This document shows, piece by piece, positions 2,988-31,467 of a stretch of 38,639 bases of DNA (the first letter of the stretch is position 1; the number at the start of each line of letters is the position of its first letter). Position numbers and translations under genes: made by a program. The DNA lies in contig JAILFT010000065.1 in NCBI GenBank assembly GCA_024697425.1, forward strand, positions 1 to 38,639, given 5' to 3'. The notes under the pieces were generated by a model. The model had not been told where the DNA came from. It saw only the letters and a list, made by a program, of their open reading frames with translations, and did no database searches. The DNA comes from Butyrivibrio sp. (GTDB taxonomy: Bacteria; Bacillota; Clostridia; Lachnospirales; Lachnospiraceae).

Positions 2988-4691
2988 ATGGCAGAGTATT
3001 TATCACCGGGCGTATACGTTGAAGAATATGATAACTCCCCCCGGAGTATTGAAGGCGTAGGCACCAGTACAGCAGGATTTGTCGGACTTGCAGAGAAAGG
3101 CCCCATCGAGGGTGCACCTCTTCTTGTAACAAACATGAGAAGCTTCAAGCAGCAGTTTGGCGGCTTCCTTTCAGAGTTTGCTTACGGCGAGTACAGACAT
3201 CTGGCTAACAGTGTACAGCAGTTCTTTGATAACGGCGGAACAAGATGCTATGTAATGCGTGTTGCTCCCAAGGATGCAAAGCCCGCTTCAGCTAAAAAAG
3301 GCTTCCTGACAATTACAGCCTCAAGCCCCGGAGCGTGGGGCAACAAGATACAGGTTAATCTTTCTACCAACAAGAAGAGAAAGATGCAGCTTGTAGAAAA
3401 GACAGACACAGGATTTATTGCAAAATCAACCGATGGCTTCAGAGAGGGAGATCTTGTGGAGTTCGACGGAACCTACACAAAGATCAAGACCATCATCGAC
3501 AGAGAAGTTGTTTTTGAGGAAGAGCTTCCCGATTCTGCTGTTGATACCGATATCATCCCTAAGTCAGTTGTTTATCTTGTAACCACTGATATCTCAATCC
3601 GCTCCGGCGATGATGTTGAGAACTACGGAGAGCTTTCTGTTAATACACAGTCTCCCAAGTTTATCGGATCAAGACTTGCAGGCAGCGACATCGTAAAGGT
3701 TGACGTTACTCCCATGAAGGAAGCAGGAAATCCCGTTTCCGCAATCCTGGGTGAGGATGTTACCGACGGTGTATTCTTCCTTGATGGCGGCAGCGACGGA
3801 TCAGCTTCCAAGATCGACGCAGGAACCTTCATCGGTGAGGATAACGGCCCCGGAAAGAGAACAGGTCTTCAGGCATTTATTGAGAACAACATTGTAAGCA
3901 TGATGGCTATCCCCGGAATCACAATTCCCGAAGTAGTTGTTGCACTTGTATCTCACTGCTCCAACACAAGAAGCAGATTCGCCGTACTGGATATGCCTAA
4001 GGACATGTACAAGACACAGGATCTTATCGGATACAGACAGATGGTTGATTCCACCTATGCAGCTATGTATCACCCCTGGATCCAGGTATTTGACAGAGCC
4101 TCCAACAAGGCAGATTTCATTCCGCCTTCAGGAGCTGTTATGGGTGTTTACTCCAGAACAGATATCGACCGCGGCGTACATAAGGCACCCGCTAATGAAG
4201 TTGTATTCTGTACAGGCCTTTCTGTAAACTACACCAAGGATGAGCAGGATATCCTGAATCCCGAGGGCATCAACCTCATCAGGAATCTTCCCGGACAGGG
4301 AATCCGCATCTGGGGTGCAAGAACAGCTTCCAGCAACAGTGCATTCAAGTATGTCAATGTTCGAAGACTCTTTATCTTCGTCGAAGAGAGTATCAAGGCA
4401 AATACCAACTGGGTTGTATTCGAACCCAACGATCCTACTCTTTGGCAGCGAGTTAATCTCACAATCTCCAACTTCCTTGACGGACTTTGGAGAAACGGAA
4501 TGCTGGCAGGCGAGTCAGCTGCTGACAGCTATTTCGTAGAGATTGGACCTTCTACAATGACAAGAGACGATATCATGAGTGGCAGACTTATCTGTAACGT
4601 AGGTATCGCACCCAGCCGTCCTGCTGAGTTCGTAATCTTCAGAGTTACTCAGCATACATCAGAAGCCGGCGGCGGTGGCGGAGAAGAATAA
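2988..4691 (+). CDS. Contractile sheath protein (Pvc2/Afp2-like)
   Basis: The 567-residue protein begins MAEYLSPGVYVEEYDNSPRS, the standard start of contractile tail sheath proteins, and ends with the sheath C-terminal domain (FEPNDPTLWQRVNLTISNFL, GIAPSRPAEFVIF). Sheath subunits form the helical sleeve that shortens to drive the tube. Pvc and Afp clusters carry several sheath genes; here there is only one, so the sheath should be a homopolymer. It has a good AGAGG ribosome site and lies 25 bases after the PAAR-like gene. The C-terminal tail is Gly/Glu-rich (EAGGGGGEE). Confidence 0.95.
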   Translation: MAEYLSPGVYVEEYDNSPRSIEGVGTSTAGFVGLAEKGPIEGAPLLVTNMRSFKQQFGGFLSEFAYGEYRHLANSVQQFFDNGGTRCYVMRVAPKDAKPASAKKGFLTITASSPGAWGNKIQVNLSTNKKRKMQLVEKTDTGFIAKSTDGFREGDLVEFDGTYTKIKTIIDREVVFEEELPDSAVDTDIIPKSVVYLVTTDISIRSGDDVENYGELSVNTQSPKFIGSRLAGSDIVKVDVTPMKEAGNPVSAILGEDVTDGVFFLDGGSDGSASKIDAGTFIGEDNGPGKRTGLQAFIENNIVSMMAIPGITIPEVVVALVSHCSNTRSRFAVLDMPKDMYKTQDLIGYRQMVDSTYAAMYHPWIQVFDRASNKADFIPPSGAVMGVYSRTDIDRGVHKAPANEVVFCTGLSVNYTKDEQDILNPEGINLIRNLPGQGIRIWGARTASSNSAFKYVNVRRLFIFVEESIKANTNWVVFEPNDPTLWQRVNLTISNFLDGLWRNGMLAGESAADSYFVEIGPSTMTRDDIMSGRLICNVGIAPSRPAEFVIFRVTQHTSEAGGGGGEE

Positions 4692-4750: not shown

Positions 4751-5251
4751 ATGGCTACTGGAGCATATGATAACGGTAAACAATCAGCTTATCCGTTAAC
4801 CAAAATGAACTTCCTGGTGACGGTTGATTCTGTCGCAGGAACTGCAGCTTTCTCAGAGGTTACAGGAATTGAGGCAACTGTAGATGTAATTGAATTCAGA
4901 CAGGGTAACTCAGGTTCACTGGCACCCGTAAAGATGCCCGGACTTGTTAAACACGGAAACGTAACTCTCAAGATGGGATATATCATTTCAAGTCCCTTCA
5001 AGACATGGGTTATGGAGTGTGTCAGCGAGATGCGTGGCCAGATCCCTCGTCAGAATGTTACCATCGAGCTCATCGATATTAACTCCGGTGCTCCCACAGC
5101 ACTTGTAGAGTCATCTGTAGGTGCAAGACAGTGGACACTGACCAATGCATGGGTAACCAAGTATACAGCTCCCGATCTTGATGCAAAGAACAGTGATGTT
5201 GCCATTGAGACAGTTGAGATTGCATACGAAGAGCTGGTAATCCCCAACTAA
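4751..5251 (+). CDS. Inner tube protein (gp19/Pvc1-like)
   Basis: The 166-residue protein matches the T4 gp19-like tube family: YPLTKMNFLVTVDSVAGTAAFSEVTGI, then MPGLVKHGNVTLKMGYI, and the late segment WTLTNAWVTKYTAPDLDAKNSDVAIETVEIAYE. It stacks as hexameric rings inside the sheath. AAAGGAG lies 9 bases before the ATG. A 59-base spacer separates it from the sheath gene and a hairpin follows its stop; both are plausible places for setting a higher level of this abundant subunit. Confidence 0.95.
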   Translation: MATGAYDNGKQSAYPLTKMNFLVTVDSVAGTAAFSEVTGIEATVDVIEFRQGNSGSLAPVKMPGLVKHGNVTLKMGYIISSPFKTWVMECVSEMRGQIPRQNVTIELIDINSGAPTALVESSVGARQWTLTNAWVTKYTAPDLDAKNSDVAIETVEIAYEELVIPN

Positions 5252-5345: not shown

Positions 5346-5708
5346 ATGGAAACAATTTATGAGTTCACATTACCAAAGGGATATATGGATTCTCAGGGGG
5401 AACTGCACAGAAGAGGCAGAATGAGACTTGCAACGGCAGGAGACGAGATATCAGCCACAAGAGACCCCAGAGTATTGGCCAACCCATCTTATCTGACCAT
5501 AGTTATCTTAAGTAAAGTTGTAACAGAGCTTGAGGGTATGGAGTCCGTTACAGCAACCACCATAGAACAGCTCTTTACCGCAGACCTTGCATATCTTCAG
5601 GATATGTATCAGAGGATAAACGATGTGGAGCCTCCCACAATGCAGTGCATATGCCCCGATTGCGGAAGAGCCTTTGAGGTACCGCTAAATTTTACACAGG
5701 AGGGTTAA
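5346..5708 (+). CDS. Tail assembly chaperone-like protein (PF12322/T4 baseplate-protein-like), short product
   Basis: The 120-residue cytosolic protein follows a strong CAGGAGGG site. Features are an N-terminal strand YEFTLPKGYMDSQGELHR, the phrase RMRLATAGDEIS, helices LVIL/LSKVVTELEGM-like in the middle, and a C-terminal zinc-ribbon half MQCICPDCGRAFEV. In CIS operons a protein of this layout follows the tube gene, and in phages this slot holds the tail assembly chaperone that guides tube building around the tape measure. Near its 3' end, at 5687-5693, there is a canonical -1 slippery heptamer in the correct phase, allowing a longer product of about 190 residues that continues into the DUF6760 segment. 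The family name is moderately sure. Confidence 0.75.
   Translation: METIYEFTLPKGYMDSQGELHRRGRMRLATAGDEISATRDPRVLANPSYLTIVILSKVVTELEGMESVTATTIEQLFTADLAYLQDMYQRINDVEPPTMQCICPDCGRAFEVPLNFTQEG
5687..5693 (+). promoter_or_regulatory. Putative -1 ribosomal frameshift site A AAT TTT
   Basis: In the zero frame the ribosome reads AAT (5688-5690) and TTT (5691-5693), preceded by A5687, so the heptamer fits X XXY YYZ exactly. A -1 slip gives AAA and TTT, then TAC ACA GGA GGG and on into DUF6760. The zero-frame stop follows at 5706-5708. Possible stimulators are a Shine-Dalgarno-like AGGAGGG just downstream (5698-5704) and a nested stem, ACAGG (5696-5700) with CCTGT (5728-5732) enclosing ATCC/GGAT (5715-5718/5722-5725). 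Confidence 0.65.
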
Positions 5709-5917
5709 GACTTTATCCAAAGGATGACCTGTACAGGGAGATGAGTTTTATCTCATACTACTTCCACTGGAGTCAGGATGAAGTCATGGCCCTTGACCAT
5801 GCATCCAGACGAAGGTGGTGCAGCGAGATATCATCCATCAACAAGAGCCTTAGTCCCTCAAAAAAGACCAAGGAAAAGAGTATCCTTGATATGAAAGCTA
5901 CAAGATCAAAAATGTAG
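5693..5917 (+). CDS. DUF6760-like segment, probably the C-terminal half of a frameshift fusion with the chaperone-like gene
   Basis: In the -1 frame, codons from 5693 to 5914 encode about 74 residues including YPKDDLYREMSFISYYFHW, then DEVMALDHASRRRWCSEI, the hallmark of DUF6760 proteins of CIS clusters. Family-like sequence begins upstream (GGLRLYPKDD) of the only ATG (5741), and no ATG, GTG or TTG occurs in frame between the stop at 5675 and 5741. The alternatives are CTG at 5729 and ATG at 5741; the latter has AGGGAG touching the start codon, poor spacing. This argues that the segment is made by -1 slippage, giving one protein of 116 + 74 residues. If instead it starts at 5741 it would be a 58-residue protein lacking the conserved N-terminal part. 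Confidence 0.75.
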   Translation, partial: YTGGLRLYPKDDLYREMSFISYYFHWSQDEVMALDHASRRRWCSEISSINKSLSPSKKTKEKSILDMKATRSKM

Positions 5918-5952
5918 ATGGCTTTTTCCCCTGAAGCCACGAGGTAGTGCCT

Positions 5953-7842
5953 ATGCCAAGACGGTATATTTACAGAGATGAAAAAGATAAATGGAATCTG
6001 AATGCCAAGGCTGATGATGCCTATAACGGCGGTGAGGCTACAGTCCTTGCCAATACCGATTTCGACGCCATTTATAATCCCATACCGGCCTTTAACTTTG
6101 TAATGGAAGTTGAAGGTCTGTATTTCCTGCCTATAAAAACTGTAAGGGCATTCACCAAGGAAAACGAGTTTGAATACATAAGAGAGGGCGGCGTCAACGA
6201 TTATATCCACTTAAAGAGAAAGCCGATCTCCAAGCCCTTTACCTTCCAGATAGAAAGATATATAGGAACCGAGAGATTCCTGGATCCCCTGGCTCTTGGT
6301 ACGGAACTGATACTTCCGCTTGTTCTTTACGTTTACAGACATAAGGCAAGGGCAGGACTTACAGCTTCCGCTCCCGCCTGGCCTGCAAGAGTGTATACCT
6401 TCATGGGCTGCACCGTAATGAGCAAGGAATACGGAGAGCTGAACGCTGAAAAGTCCGGACTTCTTACCGAGACCACCACCATAGCCTACAGAGAGCTTGG
6501 CGTTATCAACAACGGTATTCAGTCCATCTCAGAGCAGGAAGAGTGGAATCCTGAGAATTACAAGGATAAGGATGGCCCCGGATATATCAACAGATATGCG
6601 GCATTTTCACCTAATGATGACAAGGCCGCCAGCACTTACTGGTACGAGTGGAAACCTGACAAAGAAGGCATTCTTCATATGCAGATGAAGGATAAGGCTG
6701 CATACAAGTTCAAGTCATCCTTTGATCCGGAGGATAAGACCACCCACAGAGGAAAGCTTTCACTTATCGATCAGGATGAGAAGAACAAACCATATGAAGT
6801 GGAGGAAGTAGACGGAAAGCCGACTCTTGTAAGAAACAAGAAGCATGACCTTACCAGACCGCAGTACGAACTAAATAAGGATAAGAGTACACCTAAGTAC
6901 GCCGCAACGGCCTTTATAGACAAGAATGCCAATACACCCATCTACAAAGAGGTTAAGGGAGAAGATGGTCTTAAACATCTGAAAAGAGACGATCAAGCTA
7001 AGATCAATAAAGAGCCATGGGACGGAACAGGCAATAATGTCAAAACCAAGTGGGCCAAGCAGGCTGCAAATGATAAGAATAGTGTTTATGACGTAACAAC
7101 CACTGACGGTGTCAGAACCGTAAAGAGAAAAGAAAGCGATACCTCTGACTTTAATGCCGGTGCTTACAGCATGAAAAGGGATAAAACCAAGAAACTCAGA
7201 GGTCAGCTTGCTACTAATAGTTCTGATAAGGCTGTGGTAAGAGAGGCTTACAAAATCGAGAATGGAGCAACCGCAAAGCACGCCACACAATCCAGTATAG
7301 ATAAAGCAGGTAAAACCTACACCGTAACCACAGAGGACGGCGTAAAGACAGTTAAAAGAACCGACAGTGAGAAGATCAACAAGCCCGCTTATTCCTATGC
7401 GACTGATAAGGCAACCACTAAATATGCCCAGACTTCACCCAGAGACGGTGAAAAGGCAGTTGTAAGAGATCCCTACAGCATCAAGGATGGAGCAACAGCC
7501 AAGCATGCTCAGAGCCCTGCCAACAATTCGGATAAGGCAGTTGCAAGAAATCCTTACAGCATAAAAGACGGAGCAAAAGTGAAGCATGCCGTAGAATCAC
7601 CTACGGATGCCGATAGTGCCGAGGCCAGGAATCCCTACAGCATAAGCGAGGGTGCCAAGGCCAAATACGCAGTTACTTCTCCAAAGGATTCAGAGAAGGC
7701 CCAGGCGCGGCTGCCTTATGGCATATCAGAGGGCCCCAAGGCCAAATACGCGGTTACTTCTCCTAAAGATTCGGAGAAAGCACCCCCTGTCACCTGGCCA
7801 CCTACACGCCGTGCACTTATGGCGGATAATCTTAAGAAATAA
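5953..7842 (+). CDS. Second tube-like protein (Pvc5/gp19-like) with a long repetitive C-terminal extension
   Basis: ATG 5953 is chosen because GAGGT (5941-5945) is well spaced from it and too close to the in-frame GTG at 5947; this gives 629 residues. Residues 1-190 resemble tube/Pvc5-type proteins (NPIPAFNFVMEVEGLYFLPI, then FTFQIERYIGTERFLDPLALG, and YTFMGCTVMSKEYGELNAEK). In Pvc/Afp the Pvc5 ring joins tube and hub. The remaining 430 residues are unusual: a Lys/Asp/Thr-rich region with four copies of a Y-x-V-x(3-4)-DG-x(2)-TVKR-like motif (near 6795, 6943, 7087, 7318), then copies of a 26-28-residue unit built on NPYSIKDGAKAKHA. No signal peptide or membrane helix is visible. The N-terminal call is fairly sure; the extension is unexplained. 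Confidence 0.75.
   Translation: MPRRYIYRDEKDKWNLNAKADDAYNGGEATVLANTDFDAIYNPIPAFNFVMEVEGLYFLPIKTVRAFTKENEFEYIREGGVNDYIHLKRKPISKPFTFQIERYIGTERFLDPLALGTELILPLVLYVYRHKARAGLTASAPAWPARVYTFMGCTVMSKEYGELNAEKSGLLTETTTIAYRELGVINNGIQSISEQEEWNPENYKDKDGPGYINRYAAFSPNDDKAASTYWYEWKPDKEGILHMQMKDKAAYKFKSSFDPEDKTTHRGKLSLIDQDEKNKPYEVEEVDGKPTLVRNKKHDLTRPQYELNKDKSTPKYAATAFIDKNANTPIYKEVKGEDGLKHLKRDDQAKINKEPWDGTGNNVKTKWAKQAANDKNSVYDVTTTDGVRTVKRKESDTSDFNAGAYSMKRDKTKKLRGQLATNSSDKAVVREAYKIENGATAKHATQSSIDKAGKTYTVTTEDGVKTVKRTDSEKINKPAYSYATDKATTKYAQTSPRDGEKAVVRDPYSIKDGATAKHAQSPANNSDKAVARNPYSIKDGAKVKHAVESPTDADSAEARNPYSISEGAKAKYAVTSPKDSEKAQARLPYGISEGPKAKYAVTSPKDSEKAPPVTWPPTRRALMADNLKK
7447..7782 (+). repeat. Tandem 26-28-residue repeats in the tube-like protein
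   Basis: Successive units read EKAVVRDPYSIKDGATAKHA, DKAVARNPYSIKDGAKVKHA, DSAEARNPYSISEGAKAKYA and EKAQARLPYGISEGPKAKYA, with a more degenerate copy starting near 7225. The last two full units are close even in DNA: GCCAAATACGC recurs at 7660 and 7741, 81 bases apart, with only a few changes around it, suggesting recent duplication. Confidence 0.85.
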
Positions 7843-7858
7843 AGGACACAAATAACAG

Positions 7859-10327
7859 ATGCTTACTATTTCCGCACCCATTGAGGTGAAGGCAAAAAGT
7901 ACATACATAAGAGATCCGGAGGCTTTTTATCACAGAATAAAGGGCAACTACTCCCTGATGGAGACTCATATCGGGGAGGAGGATCTTTTACATATAGCGG
8001 CCACACCTCCGGAGATCTACATTCAGGAGGGTGAGGGGATCACAAGCATTTTTTCCCAGTCCCAGAGGAACGAGACAAATATCAACAAGGTAAATATTCT
8101 CAACAACGTCCTCAACAGGATCGTTACCTCGGCAGATGTAAATCTTACCTATCAGGACAGAGTATTTATCACGGATGCGCTATACAAGCTTGGGGTAAGG
8201 GATGACAGAAGGTTCATGAAGGCTTTCTACAGGATCGCCGATGAAACCAGAAACACCAACACTCTCATCAATCTCTACCTGGAAAGAGGCGGAGAACTGA
8301 GGGAACTTATAGAGGAGATCCAGACAAGGAACGTAAGGACCAGTTCTTCTGAGAGATTGGAAAAAGAAACATCAAGGACCGAAAATCTTTCGGAAGCAGT
8401 ATATGACAGGCTTCGCACCAGAGAGATCAGGGACATTGTCTCAAACTTCGAGCAGACGGGAGAAGTTAATGAGACTCAGATAGATCAGCATTACGATGAG
8501 ACAAATCTCACTCAGGCAGAGATGAGTGTAAGGCAGGAGACTGATATCTCACAGGAAGTCGAAAACATCGTGGAGAATCTTGTGGACAACAGTGTTTCAC
8601 GGGAGAGCACTTCACAGACCAGTGTAAATGAGACTGTAAACAATCAGCAAAACAGGACTGAGATAACCGGAGGGTCCGTCACTGAGAATATCAGCCAGTC
8701 ACAGACTTCTTTAAGCTCGCAGCAGAGCGTAACCAATGAGGAGAGCAACTTCCTCTACAATACAATAATGAGAAGGCTGCAGACCGGTGCCATCTACCAG
8801 ATAGTCTCCAACTTCAACAGGACTGTTGAGGCCAACGAGGTGGATGCAAGGGAATTCTCAATTGCAGATCAGAGCTACACCGCACAGCAGGTTCTTTTAT
8901 CCGTATTAAGACAAAGGGCCGGTGTTGGAACTACGAACCTTACCTTCCTCAACGAGAATACCTATGAGGAGTCCATTGAAAATGAGGAGAACCTCACCAG
9001 CAGCGTAAGAAATGAGCTTACTTCCGCGGTTCTCATGGATATGGTCAAAAATCTGTTCCACACAGCTTTTGACAGGTTCTATACCAACAATGAGACCTTC
9101 TACAGATTTGAAGACACCTTTTTCAAGGCATCGGACCAGACATTCCTTCGTCTTGTGGGGGGACCGACAACAGAGTTTGTGACAAGGTCGGAACTTAACG
9201 AGAATTATGAGGAGGAGAACAGCCGCCTCGTGCAAAACGAGATAGAGATCCTGGAGACAACCCAGACCGGCGAGATGACGGAGGAGGAAGTACAAAAGCT
9301 CACAGAGACCGTCAATGCCATAAACGTTCAGAACGAGAGAAGACGACTTGAGTTTGTAAAGCTTATAGAGCAGACAAGAACCAGGGAGCATGGAAGCGAG
9401 CCTTCGATGGGAATGTCCCAGACCAGAGAAGACGCCGCGCTTGCCCTTACAAATCCCGAGAAGCTCAAGGAAAGGCTTGCCGAGAGACAGGTCAGAAGGC
9501 AGCAGAGAAGAAGCCAGATCCTTACAGAGCTTCGGACCATCATTCCTGATGAGTCCATGGAAATCTACCAGTTTCTCGAGCAGTACTACCAGGGTGACAA
9601 CAGTGTTGTGAACAATAATTACATAAGACCTGCTGAGGTGGGAGAGCTGATATATGACATCCAGGCAGCCGAAACTCCGGAAAAGCCTCAGAGCACAGTG
9701 GTTCGTCCCGTGGATGCGGAAACTGAGGAGTTCCTTAAGTCCGTAAAAAGAGCCAGAGAGGAAGAAAAGGCTCCGGCTGTGGAACGAGAGCGGGGAATGA
9801 CTCCTTCGGAGGTGATTCGAAGACAGGCTGCAGGTAAGGCTCAGGGAACGGGTGAGCTTATACATAACATCCCCGCGATGGAGACATCACCTGAAGGTCA
9901 GAGCACTGTGGTACGACCAAGGGATGCCGAGACTAAGGCATTTCTTCAATCCGTTAAAAGAGCCAGAGAAGAAAAAGCAGCTCCGGCTACGAGAAGAGAA
10001 CAGGTCGAGATGCCACGGGTCGAGACCATTCACAGACAGAGCGAGAGCCTCACTACAGAGGAGCTGAACGAACAGCTCAGTGAAATGGAAACAAATCTAC
10101 AGAAGCAGATAAACAGGACGGTACAGACACAGAGCGTAACAGAAAACCACGTGGTGAACCAGACCAGCGTGGAGACCACCAACACCAGACAGGTGAGCCT
10201 GTCGGCAAGGGATGTGGAACAGCTTGTGGAGAACGAGATAAAGAGCAAGATGAATTCTCTTACAGGCCAGGTAATGAATAAGATTGAAAGACAGATGCGC
10301 AACGAGAAAATGAGGCGCGGTTATTAA
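7859..10327 (+). CDS. Large coiled-coil protein, probable tape measure or baseplate-linked structural protein
   Basis: This 822-residue protein is hydrophilic, rich in Glu, Gln, Asn, Arg, Ser and Thr, and mostly predicted helical with heptad-like stretches (SEAVYDRLRTREIRDIVSNF and LYNTIMRRLQTGAIYQIVSNF are related internal segments). A 70-residue tandem duplication lies near the C terminus. It has no enzyme motif. By position it sits between the chaperone-like pair and the Pvc7/hub genes, where phages encode the tape measure; a fully helical 822-residue chain would span roughly 120 nm. Pvc14-type hydrophobic segments are not obvious, so the tape-measure call is an inference. AAAGGA lies 12 bases before the ATG. 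Confidence 0.5.
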   Translation: MLTISAPIEVKAKSTYIRDPEAFYHRIKGNYSLMETHIGEEDLLHIAATPPEIYIQEGEGITSIFSQSQRNETNINKVNILNNVLNRIVTSADVNLTYQDRVFITDALYKLGVRDDRRFMKAFYRIADETRNTNTLINLYLERGGELRELIEEIQTRNVRTSSSERLEKETSRTENLSEAVYDRLRTREIRDIVSNFEQTGEVNETQIDQHYDETNLTQAEMSVRQETDISQEVENIVENLVDNSVSRESTSQTSVNETVNNQQNRTEITGGSVTENISQSQTSLSSQQSVTNEESNFLYNTIMRRLQTGAIYQIVSNFNRTVEANEVDAREFSIADQSYTAQQVLLSVLRQRAGVGTTNLTFLNENTYEESIENEENLTSSVRNELTSAVLMDMVKNLFHTAFDRFYTNNETFYRFEDTFFKASDQTFLRLVGGPTTEFVTRSELNENYEEENSRLVQNEIEILETTQTGEMTEEEVQKLTETVNAINVQNERRRLEFVKLIEQTRTREHGSEPSMGMSQTREDAALALTNPEKLKERLAERQVRRQQRRSQILTELRTIIPDESMEIYQFLEQYYQGDNSVVNNNYIRPAEVGELIYDIQAAETPEKPQSTVVRPVDAETEEFLKSVKRAREEEKAPAVERERGMTPSEVIRRQAAGKAQGTGELIHNIPAMETSPEGQSTVVRPRDAETKAFLQSVKRAREEKAAPATRREQVEMPRVETIHRQSESLTTEELNEQLSEMETNLQKQINRTVQTQSVTENHVVNQTSVETTNTRQVSLSARDVEQLVENEIKSKMNSLTGQVMNKIERQMRNEKMRRGY
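9640..10040 (+). repeat. Direct duplication of about 70 codons near the 3' end of the coiled-coil gene
   Basis: Copy 1 begins GELIYDIQAAETPEKPQSTV (about 9640) and copy 2 begins GELIHNIPAMETSPEGQSTV (about 9850). Both continue with VVRPxDAETxxFLxSVKRAREE and a Pro/Ala/Arg-rich spacer. The offset is 210 bases. Confidence 0.85.
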
Positions 10328-26309: not shown

Positions 26310-26345
26310 AGGCTGCCGGGAACCCGACGGCTTATTGGTCTTTTT
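26310..26345 (+). terminator. Terminator-like hairpin with U-run in the leader of the surface-protein gene
   Basis: AGGCTGCCGG (26310-26319) pairs with CCGACGGCTT (26324-26333) with one mismatch (C26316/A26327), two G-U pairs and loop GAAC. TCTTTTT ends at 26345, shortly after. It could end the CIS operon or, since a -10 box lies upstream and the next gene only 25 bases downstream, act as an attenuator for the surface protein. Confidence 0.5.
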
Positions 26346-26370
26346 CCGGAAAGATTATGAGGGGAACGTT

Positions 26371-29300
26371 ATGAAAGTGAATCTGAGGAAGAAGTTTAAT
26401 AATCTTAAAGCAGGGGCAAAGAGAATATTTATCGGGATGCTTATCCTGTGCCTTATTTGTACGGCATCGGGAATAGGGACCATATTTGCATATGCTGATG
26501 AGCCGGATCCAATTGTAGCTGAGCCGGAGCCCACAGATCCCACGGAGCCCACAGACCCTGCGGAGCCCACAGATCCCACAGAGCCCACAGAGCCCACAGA
26601 GCCCACAGAACCCACAGAACCCACAGAACCCACAGAACCCACGGACCCTACGGATCCCACAGATCCTACGGATCCCACGGACCCTACAGAACCCACGGAC
26701 CCCACAGATCCTACAGATCCCACAGACCCGGAAGATCCTGAAAATCCTGTAGAACCGGCAGACCCTGCAGAGGGAGAGGGCGGGGAAGAAATCGATTATC
26801 TGTACAGACCTAATGACATCGGTGTCACACATACCAAGTATCATTATGACGCTGATGGAAACGAGATAATAGATGATGAGAATGAAGCCTGCGAGATCAA
26901 TGAGGAGGGCATCTGTGAAAAATGTCATGCCCTGAAGCCGCAAGAAGAAGACCCGGCGCTGGTGGGTATTGCACCGACTATCAGTGATGACGACCTCAAG
27001 ACAAAGATATTCGGGTATTTCTTTTCTGTCGTACCTGCTACAAGTGCTCTGACCTACAACGGAGAAGATCAGGTACTGATGACTTATGATAATTTGTCGT
27101 ATTCAGATAAGGAAACCGCTATAGGTAATTATAAGTTTAGGGCGATAAGTCAGATGCAGATAAATGGAGCACTTGCCGGAACGGATGATCCTACTGTATA
27201 TAGAAAGGATGCAGATACATATAATCTGACTCTCACAGCACAACTGCATTACGAGAAAAATCAACTTGATTCTGGGTTTATGGAAGTAAGCACGACTTAC
27301 ACGATTACCATCGATAAGATTCCCATTACTGACGACAGTATTTCAAAAACTTTCAAGAACGGACTTGTTTCCGGAGGAGAGCAGTATACCGTTGACTATA
27401 TCCAGTCAGATGCAGAAGAGGATAGCTTCAGAGATCCTTTGAATTTCGTGTTAAGCGGTCATAGTCTTACTAAAGATACCGATTACACCATATCCGAAAA
27501 CCTATGGAGCAGTGATGATTATCCGGAAGCCGGCAAGGGTTATTACCTGACTTACACAGGAACAGGTAACTTTACAGGTACAATAGTTGTCGACATCACA
27601 GTTCCATATACAACTATTCCGGATATGATTTATACCGGACCTGTAGAAGATAATGTAATGTACATCCAGACTGAAGTCTCTGCCCCGGCCGGTTATGAGA
27701 TGTTCTCAGAGCTCCCCAATCCTAAAGGCAGTGCTTCTCCGGGAACCATAACAGCCAATGATATCGGAAACAACAGTGTAACTTTTTACATGAGAAAATC
27801 GGGCACCACAAATTCCTATAAGAGGACTGTTACTTTTAATATTTCTCCGATATCTCTTGCTTCAACCTTTGTTACATATGGCCCGTTTAATGATGGAATA
27901 TCCTCAGAAGACGGAACTACCATTGATTATAATAATTCCAGAGAGAGCAGTTTTACCGATCCGATTAACGTAAAGGCAGTTGTAGGAGATCAAACATATG
28001 ATCTTACTGCAGGAGAAAGCTATACGGTATCCAATGACCTTCCCGCTGATTTACTTAAAGCAGGGGAAACCTATCATATCACTCTTACCGGAATTGAGCC
28101 CTATACAGGTACCAAGGAAATACCGGTATCGGTAAAAGAACCTGCACTTCAGTTCAGCAGTGACAGTATAAACTGGGGAGACAATCAGGGACATTATGAC
28201 AGAGAGGTATATATTAAGGCATCTGAAAGGGATAAATATGATATAAGTACGACAACTGACGGGTCGGTACCTTTTAGCGGAACGGTTCACATTGATACAG
28301 CGTATGAAGAAGAAAGCCTTAACCTATACCTTAAGGTAAAGGATAGTAATAATCCCGGAAGAATAATAGGGACTTCTGCCGAAGTGACAGTTGGTGTTGA
28401 CATCAGTGACCCAAGAGTAAGTGCTGCCATTTCCGAAAATGTGATTTATACGCCGGAATCTTCCGGGGAGTCGTGCATAGATATCACAAAGCTTCTTGGA
28501 ACAGATTATTCCGGTACCGTAAGCCTTAAGTACAATGACGGAACACTGCAGGAGAACCTTGTAGCGGGAACCCATTATGAACTGGTTAATCCCGTTATTA
28601 CAGAACCTGCATCTGTATCCGAAGATGGTACAACCTATTTTCTGACCGTAAAAGGTCTTCCTTCCGGTGGATTTATCGGGGAGAGAAAAATCGGAGTTGT
28701 TGTACCTTCAAAGAAGCTTCTTTTTGACGGAAGTGAAAAAGCAGATGACTCTGTATATATTAATCACGTGGCAATAAAAGTGGCTGACTCCGGATATTCA
28801 ATAGGCCTTACTGCCAGTGATCTGGGTGAGTCAGTAACCTATGATAAGGCAGGTAATAATCAGACAGTAACTGTTTATATAAGAAATACCGGTGAAGGTG
28901 GTCACATCAGCAAGCAGACTATTACAGGACTTAATGTAAGCAAGCCTGAATTGCTGTATGCCGGAAAGCCCACCATGTCCGACTTCTACGAGATATCCGT
29001 AGAGCTGAGCGCTAATCTATACGATATTGTGAAAGTCGTGGAGGCAGACGGAACTTCCGCCACACCGGATAATCCAACAGGTGACGGAACCTTCTCAAAC
29101 GGCAAGTACACAAGAACTAAAGAGGGAACAGACCAGTCTTTTACCGTATATGTTCGTTACAAGGATTCGGATGAAAGTGTTGATCCTATCGCCATAGAAG
29201 TTACAGGACTGAATATCTATCCCGGTGGCTATACGGATTTGAATCTCAGATACAACGGAGAGCTTGCAAGAAAGCCCTGGTATAATGCCAACGTCAGTAT

Positions 29301-31467
29301 CACTGCTGACGGTTACGATGTTGCGGAGTATGAATCCACCTCTTACAAGAGCAGTTATGTAGTAAAGGATGAAGGAAAGAATAAAGTTGACCTTTCTTTC
29401 CGGTTCAGAAATGATACTGCCCGCGTTGAGTCTGTAAGAGATATTGAGATCAACATTGACAAGACTCCCGGCACCGGAAGGATCAAGGTAGGTGACTACA
29501 CCAGCAGCTCTTTTGTATCATCGGATGATCTGGCAAAGGCCTTTGACAGCGCCGAAGAGATTACTATTTCGGGAGAGGACGCCCTCTCAGGAGTGGATTA
29601 CATCAGATACTTCCTTACCGACACCTATTACGAGGACGTAGCTGCTCTTAAGGCCGCTGTTCCTCCTACCTCGGAGTCGACGCAGTGGAAGACCTACAGC
29701 GATGACAGCAAGCCGACACTCGTAGAGAACAAAAAGAATTATCTCTACGCCATCACCTATGACAAGGCCGGAAACAGCACGTTTATTTCCTCCGGCAAGC
29801 TTGCCTGCTCAACAGCAAAGGCAACAGGCGAGATAAAGGTGGGTAAGTACTCAAGTAAGAAGTTCCAGACTTCCGACACCAATGCCATGTATGTCAACAA
29901 GCCTCAGAAGGTTGCCATAACAGCAAGTACCGAGGGCATGGAAATCGAGAAGATCGAATACTACATCAGTGACACCTACTATTCTTCCTCTGAGGAGGTT
30001 GAGGCAGGAATCAGGGACAGAAGCTCCAGCTGGAGAACCTATTCCGCAAGCGCACAGCCTGAGACCACCCTCAAGGAAAAGAAGAATTATGTATACGCAA
30101 GGATAACCGACGGAGCAGGTAATTATACTTATCTCTCCACAGCCGCAGTTGTATATGACACAGTGGCACCTAAGCTTACCACCTACAAGGCTGTACGTTC
30201 CGACACCGGTACCGGTGCTACGGTTGCCTTTGCAGGATCGGATGACCTTTCCGGAATCAACAGATTCAAGATCGTTGTCAGGGAAAAGACCTCCGATAAT
30301 ATGACGCCTCCCGACAAGAATTACATGATGGATATGGGTGGCTTCATAGAAGTTGGCAGTTCAGACGGAAAAGAGGCAGTGGCTTCCTATGATGTTAAAG
30401 ACCTTGAAGCCGGCAAGACCTATATGCTCTACTTTGCAGCTGTAGACAGAGCAGGCAATATAAGCAATGTCAAGCAGCAGGAACTCAAAGCAGGCAGCGA
30501 GCAGGCAGCAGGAAGCGGTTCAGGTTCAGGCTCAGGCAGCTCCGGCTCCGGTTCGGGCTCGGGTGGCCTTACTCCTGCACCAAACGGAATAGCAGGTTCA
30601 GGCCCTATAACCAAGACCCCGGGCAATATCCCTTCCAAGACTCCTGCGACTCCGACTACGGCAGAGAGGATTGCCGGAACTACCATCAACAGAGAGCCAT
30701 ATATTGCCGAGGCTACAGGAAATGTCAGGATTGGTGAAATAGAGACTTCAGGCTGGAACAGGATATCCCATGAAGTCAAAGTTGCCGATAAAGGCGCACA
30801 GCTTGAAGTGGAGATGAGCGGTACCTCCAATGTATCGGGAGAGCTCTTTTCCGCAATGAAGGAAAGGGATGTTACCACGAGACTTCGTATGGCAGAAGGT
30901 GTGAAGTGGGAGATCACCTCATCGGATGTTGCCGATGCCTCTGCATCCAATATTGACCTTGGAGTAAAACTCGGAAGTAAGGCAATTCCTTCCGGTGTTA
31001 TACAGCAGCTTTCAGGCTCATATCCTCATGTGGAGTTCTCCATAAACCATGAGGGAGACTTTGGATTTACCGCTACCATCATCGTTCCGGTGGGAGCATC
31101 AAACAGCGGCAAGTACGCGACTTTGTACCGCTATGATGCTGATGCAAGAACAGCTACGGTTGAGGGAAATACCACGGTTGATGATCTTGGATATGCAAGA
31201 TTCCCTATGACCCATGCATCTGAGTACACGGTGGTGATCACCACGGATAAACTCCTGGCAGCAGCTGATACACCTTCCGATGTGGAGGAAGGAACCGTGA
31301 TCCCGACAAATGACACTGTAAGGCTCAGACTTACCGATATATTTGCCTTCAGAGGCGATGTTCGCGTGTGGCTGTTCTTTATAGCATTCCTGAGTGCAGT
31401 TGCCTGCCTGATCATACTGTTTTTGCCGCAGCTTCAGAGAAAAGACGATTCAGGGGATGAACTTTAA
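26371..31467 (+). CDS. Large membrane-anchored surface protein with Pro-Thr-Asp/Glu repeat and Ig-like domains
   Basis: ATG 26371 follows GAGGGGA; an in-frame TTG at 26335 overlaps the terminator and is rejected. The 1698-residue product has a signal peptide (positive MKVNLRKKFNNLKAGAKR, hydrophobic core, likely cut after AYA near residue 42), about 27 tripeptides of the (E/D)PT type, a CEICEKC-like pair of cysteines, and many beta-sandwich repeats typical of adhesive surface proteins (IDKIPITDDSIS, GYYLTYTGTGNFTG, VAPKLTTYKAVRSDTGTGAT). A Gly-Ser linker precedes a C-terminal domain and a membrane helix (about 1666-1686) with a short charged tail (LQRKDDSGDEL). There is no LPXTG. It projects from the cell; whether it serves the CIS is unknown. 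Confidence 0.85.
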   Translation: MKVNLRKKFNNLKAGAKRIFIGMLILCLICTASGIGTIFAYADEPDPIVAEPEPTDPTEPTDPAEPTDPTEPTEPTEPTEPTEPTEPTEPTDPTDPTDPTDPTDPTEPTDPTDPTDPTDPEDPENPVEPADPAEGEGGEEIDYLYRPNDIGVTHTKYHYDADGNEIIDDENEACEINEEGICEKCHALKPQEEDPALVGIAPTISDDDLKTKIFGYFFSVVPATSALTYNGEDQVLMTYDNLSYSDKETAIGNYKFRAISQMQINGALAGTDDPTVYRKDADTYNLTLTAQLHYEKNQLDSGFMEVSTTYTITIDKIPITDDSISKTFKNGLVSGGEQYTVDYIQSDAEEDSFRDPLNFVLSGHSLTKDTDYTISENLWSSDDYPEAGKGYYLTYTGTGNFTGTIVVDITVPYTTIPDMIYTGPVEDNVMYIQTEVSAPAGYEMFSELPNPKGSASPGTITANDIGNNSVTFYMRKSGTTNSYKRTVTFNISPISLASTFVTYGPFNDGISSEDGTTIDYNNSRESSFTDPINVKAVVGDQTYDLTAGESYTVSNDLPADLLKAGETYHITLTGIEPYTGTKEIPVSVKEPALQFSSDSINWGDNQGHYDREVYIKASERDKYDISTTTDGSVPFSGTVHIDTAYEEESLNLYLKVKDSNNPGRIIGTSAEVTVGVDISDPRVSAAISENVIYTPESSGESCIDITKLLGTDYSGTVSLKYNDGTLQENLVAGTHYELVNPVITEPASVSEDGTTYFLTVKGLPSGGFIGERKIGVVVPSKKLLFDGSEKADDSVYINHVAIKVADSGYSIGLTASDLGESVTYDKAGNNQTVTVYIRNTGEGGHISKQTITGLNVSKPELLYAGKPTMSDFYEISVELSANLYDIVKVVEADGTSATPDNPTGDGTFSNGKYTRTKEGTDQSFTVYVRYKDSDESVDPIAIEVTGLNIYPGGYTDLNLRYNGELARKPWYNANVSITADGYDVAEYESTSYKSSYVVKDEGKNKVDLSFRFRNDTARVESVRDIEINIDKTPGTGRIKVGDYTSSSFVSSDDLAKAFDSAEEITISGEDALSGVDYIRYFLTDTYYEDVAALKAAVPPTSESTQWKTYSDDSKPTLVENKKNYLYAITYDKAGNSTFISSGKLACSTAKATGEIKVGKYSSKKFQTSDTNAMYVNKPQKVAITASTEGMEIEKIEYYISDTYYSSSEEVEAGIRDRSSSWRTYSASAQPETTLKEKKNYVYARITDGAGNYTYLSTAAVVYDTVAPKLTTYKAVRSDTGTGATVAFAGSDDLSGINRFKIVVREKTSDNMTPPDKNYMMDMGGFIEVGSSDGKEAVASYDVKDLEAGKTYMLYFAAVDRAGNISNVKQQELKAGSEQAAGSGSGSGSGSSGSGSGSGGLTPAPNGIAGSGPITKTPGNIPSKTPATPTTAERIAGTTINREPYIAEATGNVRIGEIETSGWNRISHEVKVADKGAQLEVEMSGTSNVSGELFSAMKERDVTTRLRMAEGVKWEITSSDVADASASNIDLGVKLGSKAIPSGVIQQLSGSYPHVEFSINHEGDFGFTATIIVPVGASNSGKYATLYRYDADARTATVEGNTTVDDLGYARFPMTHASEYTVVITTDKLLAAADTPSDVEEGTVIPTNDTVRLRLTDIFAFRGDVRVWLFFIAFLSAVACLIILFLPQLQRKDDSGDEL
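26527..26772 (+). repeat. Tripeptide-coding repeat, (E/D)PT array, 9-bp period
   Basis: About 27 consecutive units such as gagcccaca, gatcccacg and gaaccc aca encode EPT or DPT with occasional A, E or N replacements at the end. It forms a rigid extended acidic stalk just after the signal peptide. The homogeneous block of EPT units in the middle suggests slippage and copy-number change. Confidence 0.9.

Follow-up and report, generated by a model that had tools for sequence, protein, structure and literature searches.

Genomic context

The window (the whole stretch of Butyrivibrio sp. DNA analysed here, 38,639 nt) carries a CIS gene cluster. The cluster includes genes for a Pvc16-like protein, a DUF4280/PAAR-like protein, the sheath, the tube, a chaperone-like protein and DUF6760. 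Its further genes code for two CIS_tube proteins, a VgrG-related protein (below the cut-off), a baseplate V protein, gp25, two baseplate J proteins, Tail_P2_I and an AAA ATPase. The features relevant to the present analysis are listed below in window coordinates.

2988-4691, plus strand: CIS sheath (Phage_sheath_1, E 3.6e-18)
4751-5251, plus strand: CIS inner tube, gp19-like (Phage_T4_gp19, E 6.9e-32)
5346-5708, plus strand: tail-assembly-chaperone-like gene, frame 0, 120 amino acids, stop codon TAA at 5706-5708, C-terminal CPxC..EV motif
5687-5693, plus strand: slippery heptamer A AAT TTT (from the sequence and from its conservation in its class and in its own family)
5678-5917, plus strand: open region of the -1 frame encoding DUF6760 (PF20546), related to P2 GpE' (from Pfam, profile comparison and coding constraint)
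5346-5917, plus strand: predicted frameshift product, 116 codons of frame 0 followed by 74 of the -1 frame, 190 amino acids
5698-5704, plus strand: AGGAGGG, Shine-Dalgarno-like, followed by no start codon and present in only part of the relatives
5741-5743, plus strand: first ATG of the -1 frame, within the conserved DUF6760 region and directly abutted by a purine run
5947-7842, plus strand: second tube-like protein with a long repetitive C-terminal part (Phage_T4_gp19, E 2.5e-4, below the cut-off)
7859-10327, plus strand: long protein, probable tape measure judging from position and composition

The initial annotation had located the junction of the chaperone and DUF6760 genes directly after the tube gene and ahead of the probable tape measure. 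The pair does lie between these two, with the qualification that the second tube-like gene (5947-7842) precedes the probable tape measure. This second tube-like protein is closed by many near-repeats of the KAKYAVTSPKDSEKA type (7100-7842), an uncommon feature in a tube protein. Further downstream, past the CIS cluster, the window encodes a surface-like protein of 1710 residues with a long stretch of EPTDPT-type repeats (26335-31467).

Identity of the two proteins

The chaperone-like protein matches PHROG 508, 'tail assembly chaperone' (E 1.9e-8), as do 17 of the 18 members of its alignment. Its AF2 model (pLDDT 86.5) has seven fold matches in BFVD at E <= 0.001, named as baseplate, baseplate hub assembly, uncharacterised or unnamed proteins; FS-gp41 of phage Mu (P0DJY4) comes at rank 18 (TM 0.56, E 5.1e-3). 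The chaperone role is thus putative and assigned from PHROG 508 and gene position, because the top fold matches are not chaperones. The Pfam family Gp41_Mu is weakly matched by eight of the 18 relatives (best E 0.01), the window's own protein giving no match, and a profile comparison with P2 gpE reached a probability of 0.1, below the best shuffle.

For DUF6760, profile alignment by hhalign with the P2-like GpE' family (PF06528) covered 39 columns at a probability of 92.3 (P 5.4e-7), and its score of 34.3 exceeds 18.3, the highest value among 100 column shuffles. When single sequences were scanned with Pfam, PF06528 appeared in one of nine DUF6760 members (E 0.01, below the cut-off) and gave no match to the window's sequence. 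By profile comparison, then, the domain with which P2 extends gpE through a -1 shift is a relative of DUF6760. Its predicted model is helical only (mean pLDDT 74), and fold searches with it returned nothing significant. DUF6760 itself was not found in the viral contigs and phage records searched; the PHROG families 10636 and 1756 show weak matches to some of its members. The BFVD proteins A0A8S5QRT9 and A0A8S5QR30, from the uncultured phage Myoviridae sp. ctgXL3, are the second-ranked fold match, at E 2.9e-7 for the chaperone and at E 0.31 (not significant) for DUF6760; according to the predicted folds, this virus may carry a chaperone/DUF6760 pair.

Another small CIS protein considered for DUF6760 was the spike plug Cis6, whose gene is located between cis5 and cis7. 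DUF6760 sits between two tube genes, and a PDB sequence search with it matched no chain of a CIS. Cis6 (Alg6/Afp6/Pvc6) has one strand and one C-terminal helix according to the accessible parts of PMC8894135 and PMC8894136, whereas DUF6760 is predicted to be helical only, and on these three grounds Cis6 was set aside as the leading identity.

Reading frames at the junction

The chaperone codons at 5685-5693 are CTA AAT TTT, so that the heptamer A AAT TTT (5687-5693) falls into X XXY YYZ phase. Preceded by TGA at 5675-5677, the -1 frame is open from 5678 to 5914 (79 codons) and ends with TAG at 5915-5917; it contains no ATG, GTG or TTG upstream of the ATG at 5741. The Pfam match to DUF6760 (E 3.8e-17) begins at residue 11 of the -1 frame, position 5708, which is 33 bases before that ATG. 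Direct reading therefore agrees with the initial annotation on the exact slippery phase, on the start-free open frame and on family-like sequence ahead of the first ATG. The proposed product lengths of 120 and about 190 residues are also recovered (116 + 74 residues upon a slip).

As a background set we used the window and nine related loci of 4.8-12 kb, with 115 ORFs and 40,792 codons. In-phase AAATTTT occurs 18 times in this set, 10 of them within the last ten codons of an ORF; these ten would be the ten chaperone genes of the ten sources. In a 10-codon overlap, chance alone would give 0.004 occurrences of AAATTTT and 0.08 of any canonical heptamer. The genome contains a single copy of the exact 21-base junction sequence.

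Distribution of the pair and frame offset across loci

Genomes were searched with the DUF6760 Pfam model, in sets that partly overlap. Matches were found in 14 of 61 genomes of relatives, 16 of 391 of the class and 24 of 299 of the family. For sets taken by phylum, they were found in 16 of 246 (Streptomyces), 6 of 349 (Trinickia, three over the cut-off), 13 of 117 (Nostoc) and 10 of 196 (Methanosarcina). Eleven genomes were reached via the loci themselves and all match, necessarily so. A protein-pattern scan of species genomes confirmed at least 575 places, of which 80 were kept. Both genes were located by profile in all loci and 13 duplicates were collapsed, giving 176 distinct loci with both genes. 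Two loci with weak matches in very long ORFs (L028, L143) and the phage loci L195-L206 were left out before counting, and three loci lacking a chaperone partner (L134, L142, L144) were excluded from the counts.

DUF6760 lies in the -1 frame relative to the chaperone gene in 171 of the 176 loci, in the +1 frame in three (L101, L154, L157) and in frame 0 in two (L027, L136); these loci are related and hence are not independent observations. L101 carries a run of four G in place of the five of its relatives, which may be a sequencing error. At L027 the two genes share a frame with a TAG between them, an arrangement compatible with read-through, decay or an assembly error. The -1 offset proves little on its own, because overlapping starts such as ATGA also give -1.

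Conservation of the putative slip site

In the window's own family, which was not selected for the site, AAATTTT is present in 36 of 37 loci, the window included, and the remaining locus (L183) carries another canonical heptamer, TTTTTTG. The heptamer is accordingly conserved across the loci of this family, a check that the initial annotation had proposed for CIS clusters. The wider AAATTTT class (51 loci) is defined by the site itself, and the unselected figure is that of the own family. In all 51 loci of the class, the site codons are AAT and TTT and the preceding codon ends in A. The residue before AAT is valine (18), leucine (17) or isoleucine (16), encoded by GTA (18), ATA (16), CTA (13) or TTA (4).

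In the same genes, codons ending in A make up 15% of leucine, 26% of isoleucine and 26% of valine codons, AAT 70% of asparagine codons and TTT 86% of phenylalanine codons. From this codon usage the full site would be expected in 6.9 of the 51 loci, versus 51 in this site-defined class. Pairs of loci with the same residue also have the same codon in a fraction of 1.0 at both site codons and 0.87 at the preceding codon, where the differences are TTA versus CTA. Over 29 codons further upstream, this fraction ranges from 0.23 to 0.93 with a median of 0.50. As far as codon comparison can tell, the slip site is conserved beyond what the protein requires, and its synonymous positions are frozen, unlike those of its neighbours.

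Other lineages have other sites at the same place: TTTTTTG or TTTTTTA in 35 loci, GGGAAAN in nine and a GGGGGAR-type site in 65, leaving 11 of the 171 loci at -1 with no strong slip site. The TTTTTTN-class loci are mostly from Paenibacillus and Cohnella among the named ones. The codon before their site is TCT in 12 loci; TCT accounts for six of the 79 serine codons in those genes.

A Shine-Dalgarno-like stimulator upstream of the site appears weakly enriched, which is no more than suggestive. Of 42 glutamate codons at the FEV position, 34 are GAG rather than GAA, against a background of 55%. The mean duplex energy is -5.8 versus -3.6, with 22% of the control windows equally strong.

Start codons and coding constraint of the -1 frame

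From the slip site to the first codon of the DUF6760 core, the -1 frame is free of ATG, GTG and TTG in 47 of the 51 AAATTTT-class loci, the core's first codon itself being excluded as a possible start. The absence of a start codon, the second feature that the initial annotation had asked to be followed across clusters, is therefore conserved. The same interval is start-free in 34 of 35 TTTTTTN and 44 of 65 GGGGGAR loci; an ATG or GTG is found there in five of the nine GGGAAAN loci.

A start codon near or after the upstream stop occurs in 31 of the 160 loci with a strong site, versus eight of the 11 without one (Fisher P 0.0004, which is indicative because the loci are related). Separate or mixed expression is thus possible in these 31 loci. 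The pattern named in the initial annotation as contrary to frameshifting, an own start without a heptamer, is confined to the minority of eight loci, which includes two loci of Brevibacillus and four of the Streptomyces phylum. In L082, L083, L103, L133, L135, L138 and L139 the slip site has seemingly been lost and an overlapping ATG gained for DUF6760.

Constraint on the -1 frame was measured in 28 equally spaced loci, over the nine codons that lead from the upstream stop into the DUF6760 core. Identity by codon position is 0.81/0.86/0.44 in the -1 frame. Single-base codon differences, counted as synonymous to non-synonymous, are 1182:537 in this frame, 159:1741 in frame 0 and 117:1584 in the remaining frame. 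The nine-codon stretch is start-free in 24 of the 28 loci, its third-last column being ATG in two and TTG in two. By these measures, protein-coding constraint acts on the -1 frame before any start codon is reached. Within the overlap, the first codon after the slip encodes T, M, L, S or I in frame 0 and Y in 43 of 51 loci in the -1 frame. At the third and fourth codons, the frame-0 constraint is stronger than that of the -1 frame, which dual coding allows but does not prove.

These data bear on two explanations in which DUF6760 is made separately. The first is a 58-residue protein started at ATG 5741 by translational coupling, the heptamer being a coincidence. That ATG is present with purines just upstream, and overlapping starts exist in some lineages, in eight of the 11 loci that lack a strong site (e.g. 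L082 and L083, with ATGA behind GGAGGG, and L133, L135, L138 and L139). Starting at 5741, however, would cut off the conserved YPxxxLYRE, a part that is constrained in the -1 frame and at which the Pfam match begins. There is no spacing between the purine run and the ATG, and the frozen synonymous sites of the heptamer are left unexplained. We regard this explanation as improbable.

The second would be non-canonical initiation behind AGGAGGG (5698-5704), for example at codon 5711. AGGAGGG is a strong Shine-Dalgarno match, and the codon about 7 nt further on is suitably spaced and is CTG in 12 of 28 relatives. In the remaining 16, however, it is CTT (12), CTC (3) or GTT (1), none of them a usual start codon; the AGGAGGG-like string is missing in some relatives (e.g. 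L017 and L019), and the invariant heptamer again finds no explanation. Initiation of this kind is very improbable.

Downstream RNA structure in the GGGGGAR class

The 65 loci of the GGGGGAR class have G GGG GAR or GGGGGGA in place of the other heptamers. On G GGG GAR, full re-pairing is open to the glycine tRNA of the P site only. When the 60 nt downstream were compared with shuffles, this class gave a mean z of -2.87, with 86% of values below -1. No downstream structure was seen by the same measure in the window's AAATTTT class (mean z -0.35), in the TTTTTTN class (-0.29) or in the GGGAAAN class (-0.59). The slippage efficiency in the window's class may consequently be low.

The structure of the GGGGGAR class is a 7+5 bp stem-loop within the codons for G-Y-P-x-x-x-L-Y-E-E-V-A (e.g. 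L096:3027-3062). It is found in archaea, cyanobacteria, Nitrospira and Firmicutes, and six loci scanned against Rfam gave no match to it. The spacer between the seven-base site and the stem measures 5 nt in 37 of the 65 loci and 8 nt in 14; in the other 14, no such stem was found by pattern.

Stem statistics were calculated on 49 of the 65 loci. Seven loci with a 36-nt stem identical to that of another were left out, the eight loci L125-L132 of the Streptomyces phylum were counted apart, and L137 lacks the motif. In the 49 loci, 87.4% of the cells are paired, versus 26-61% in slid versions. Paired cells changed on both sides number 21, versus 6.1 in shuffles (0/500), and the covariation is 0.202, versus 0.149 in shuffles (0/500). 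Further pair types number 16, versus 14.4 in shuffles (68/500). RNAalifold by itself predicts five pairs, of the lower stem only. Synonymous recodings match the stability of the natural sequence in no more than 5% of cases in 41 of the 49 loci. The valine codon within the stem is GTA in 38 of the 49 loci, against a background of 21%.

L125-L132 carry, at the corresponding position behind GGGGGAA or a G-run, an inverted repeat of another kind with ten pairs, ACGTACGCN...N'GCGTACGT. It is 91.3% paired, with one pair changed on both sides, and at most 5% of recodings are equally stable in seven of the eight loci, L125 being the exception. An overlapping GTG or ATG is also present in seven of the eight, and a frameshift and an own start may coexist there.

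Transcriptional rather than ribosomal slippage, in which a homopolymer shifts the mRNA, is as improbable as non-canonical initiation: the TTTTTTG and GGGGGA classes do hold runs of five or six, but A3T4 is shorter than the runs known for polymerase slippage, the slip sites are in exact ribosomal phase, and in 51 of the 65 GGGGGAR loci the stem-loop follows the site at 5 or 8 nt, a distance that fits ribosomal -1 sites.

Proposed mechanism and comparison with phages

From the reading frames, the missing start codon, the frozen site, the coding constraint and the relationship to GpE', we infer that programmed -1 slippage on A AAT TTT very probably makes a chaperone-DUF6760 fusion, the CIS counterpart of P2 gpE/gpE+E'. 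The chaperone gene and DUF6760 would form one expression unit for two proteins, operating in the manner of lambda gpG/gpGT. Most ribosomes would stop at 5706 and yield the 120-residue tail-assembly chaperone. Some would slip one base back on A AAT TTT, where the Asn tRNA in the P site and the Phe tRNA in the A site would re-pair with AAA TTT, and would continue into DUF6760 to give the 190-residue fusion. As for the predicted roles, coating of the tape measure probably falls to the short form. In the minor form, the DUF6760 tail would probably recruit tube subunits, upon which the tube would polymerise to length.

A close known counterpart is phage P2, which shares the contractile machine and the order of sheath, tube, chaperone with -1 extension and tape measure (FI-FII-E/E+E'-T). 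The P2 record annotates the -1 shift, and P2 and ten P2-like phages all have the E' frame at -1 and an in-phase six-T heptamer. The P2 site is T TTT TTG, and the 35 TTTTTTN-class loci use the same TTTTTTG or TTTTTTA. The window differs from P2 in its site (A AAT TTT), in the second tube gene before the probable tape measure, in its CIS genes and in a chaperone part unrelated to gpE by profile. With Mu FS-gp41, the chaperone part shares a weak likeness in sequence (in the eight relatives matching Gp41_Mu) and in predicted fold, whereas the window's own chaperone has no Gp41_Mu match. Together with the relationship of DUF6760 to P2 GpE', this likeness strengthens the analogy with phage tail chaperones drawn in the initial annotation.

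The slip site of lambda is G GGA AAG, which is also found in L056 (Trinickia) and L140 (same phylum). The lambda system further shares with the window the two products, here predicted, of a pair between tube and tape measure; it differs in belonging to a virus rather than to a CIS. According to the accessible part of PMC5009743, lambda gpG and gpGT are made in a fixed ratio from one gene between the tube and tape measure genes, and gpGT recruits tube subunits to the chaperone-coated tape measure.

The initial annotation knew of no such frameshift described for CIS, and the open-licence literature on CIS, tail chaperones and tailocins does not contradict it: in the parts accessible, none is described in papers including PMC8718954, PMC8528098, PMC3711429, PMC10885494, PMC5009743, PMC8894135, PMC8894136, PMC11566945, PMC12210884, PMC3091744 and PMC11915804. 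A search of the same kind of literature for DUF6760 found no paper. Frameshifting in the chaperone genes of tailed phages is known and widespread; our results support as new its occurrence in the cellular CIS of both bacteria and archaea, where the signals follow two designs.

More broadly, we think it likely, with less assurance than for the window itself, that the chaperone-DUF6760 -1 fusion is ancestral and general in bacterial and archaeal CIS and is selected at the level of mRNA. One design would be an unstructured tandem-slippage heptamer (A AAT TTT, T TTT TTR or G GGA AAN), the other a weaker P-site G GGG GAR with a covarying stem-loop, the signals being read by both kinds of ribosome. 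The proposed frameshift in itself would add a recoding step to CIS assembly, and DUF6760, a domain of unknown function, would gain a likely function as the counterpart of P2 gpE'. Bacterial and archaeal ribosomes alike seem to read this one cellular frameshift. Lineages in which a heptamer and a G-run with a stem-loop have naturally replaced one another constitute a ready comparative set for the requirements of -1 sites.

A fusion without its own start codon also has a practical consequence, since annotators would miss, truncate or mis-start DUF6760. In three public plasmid records its annotation begins at ATA in Nostoc (L189:9007), at ATT in Pseudanabaena (L194:3007) and at a TTG inside the domain in Rhodococcus (L192:4061). 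In a Haloferax plasmid record, the annotated DUF6760 gene overlaps the preceding gene by four bases.
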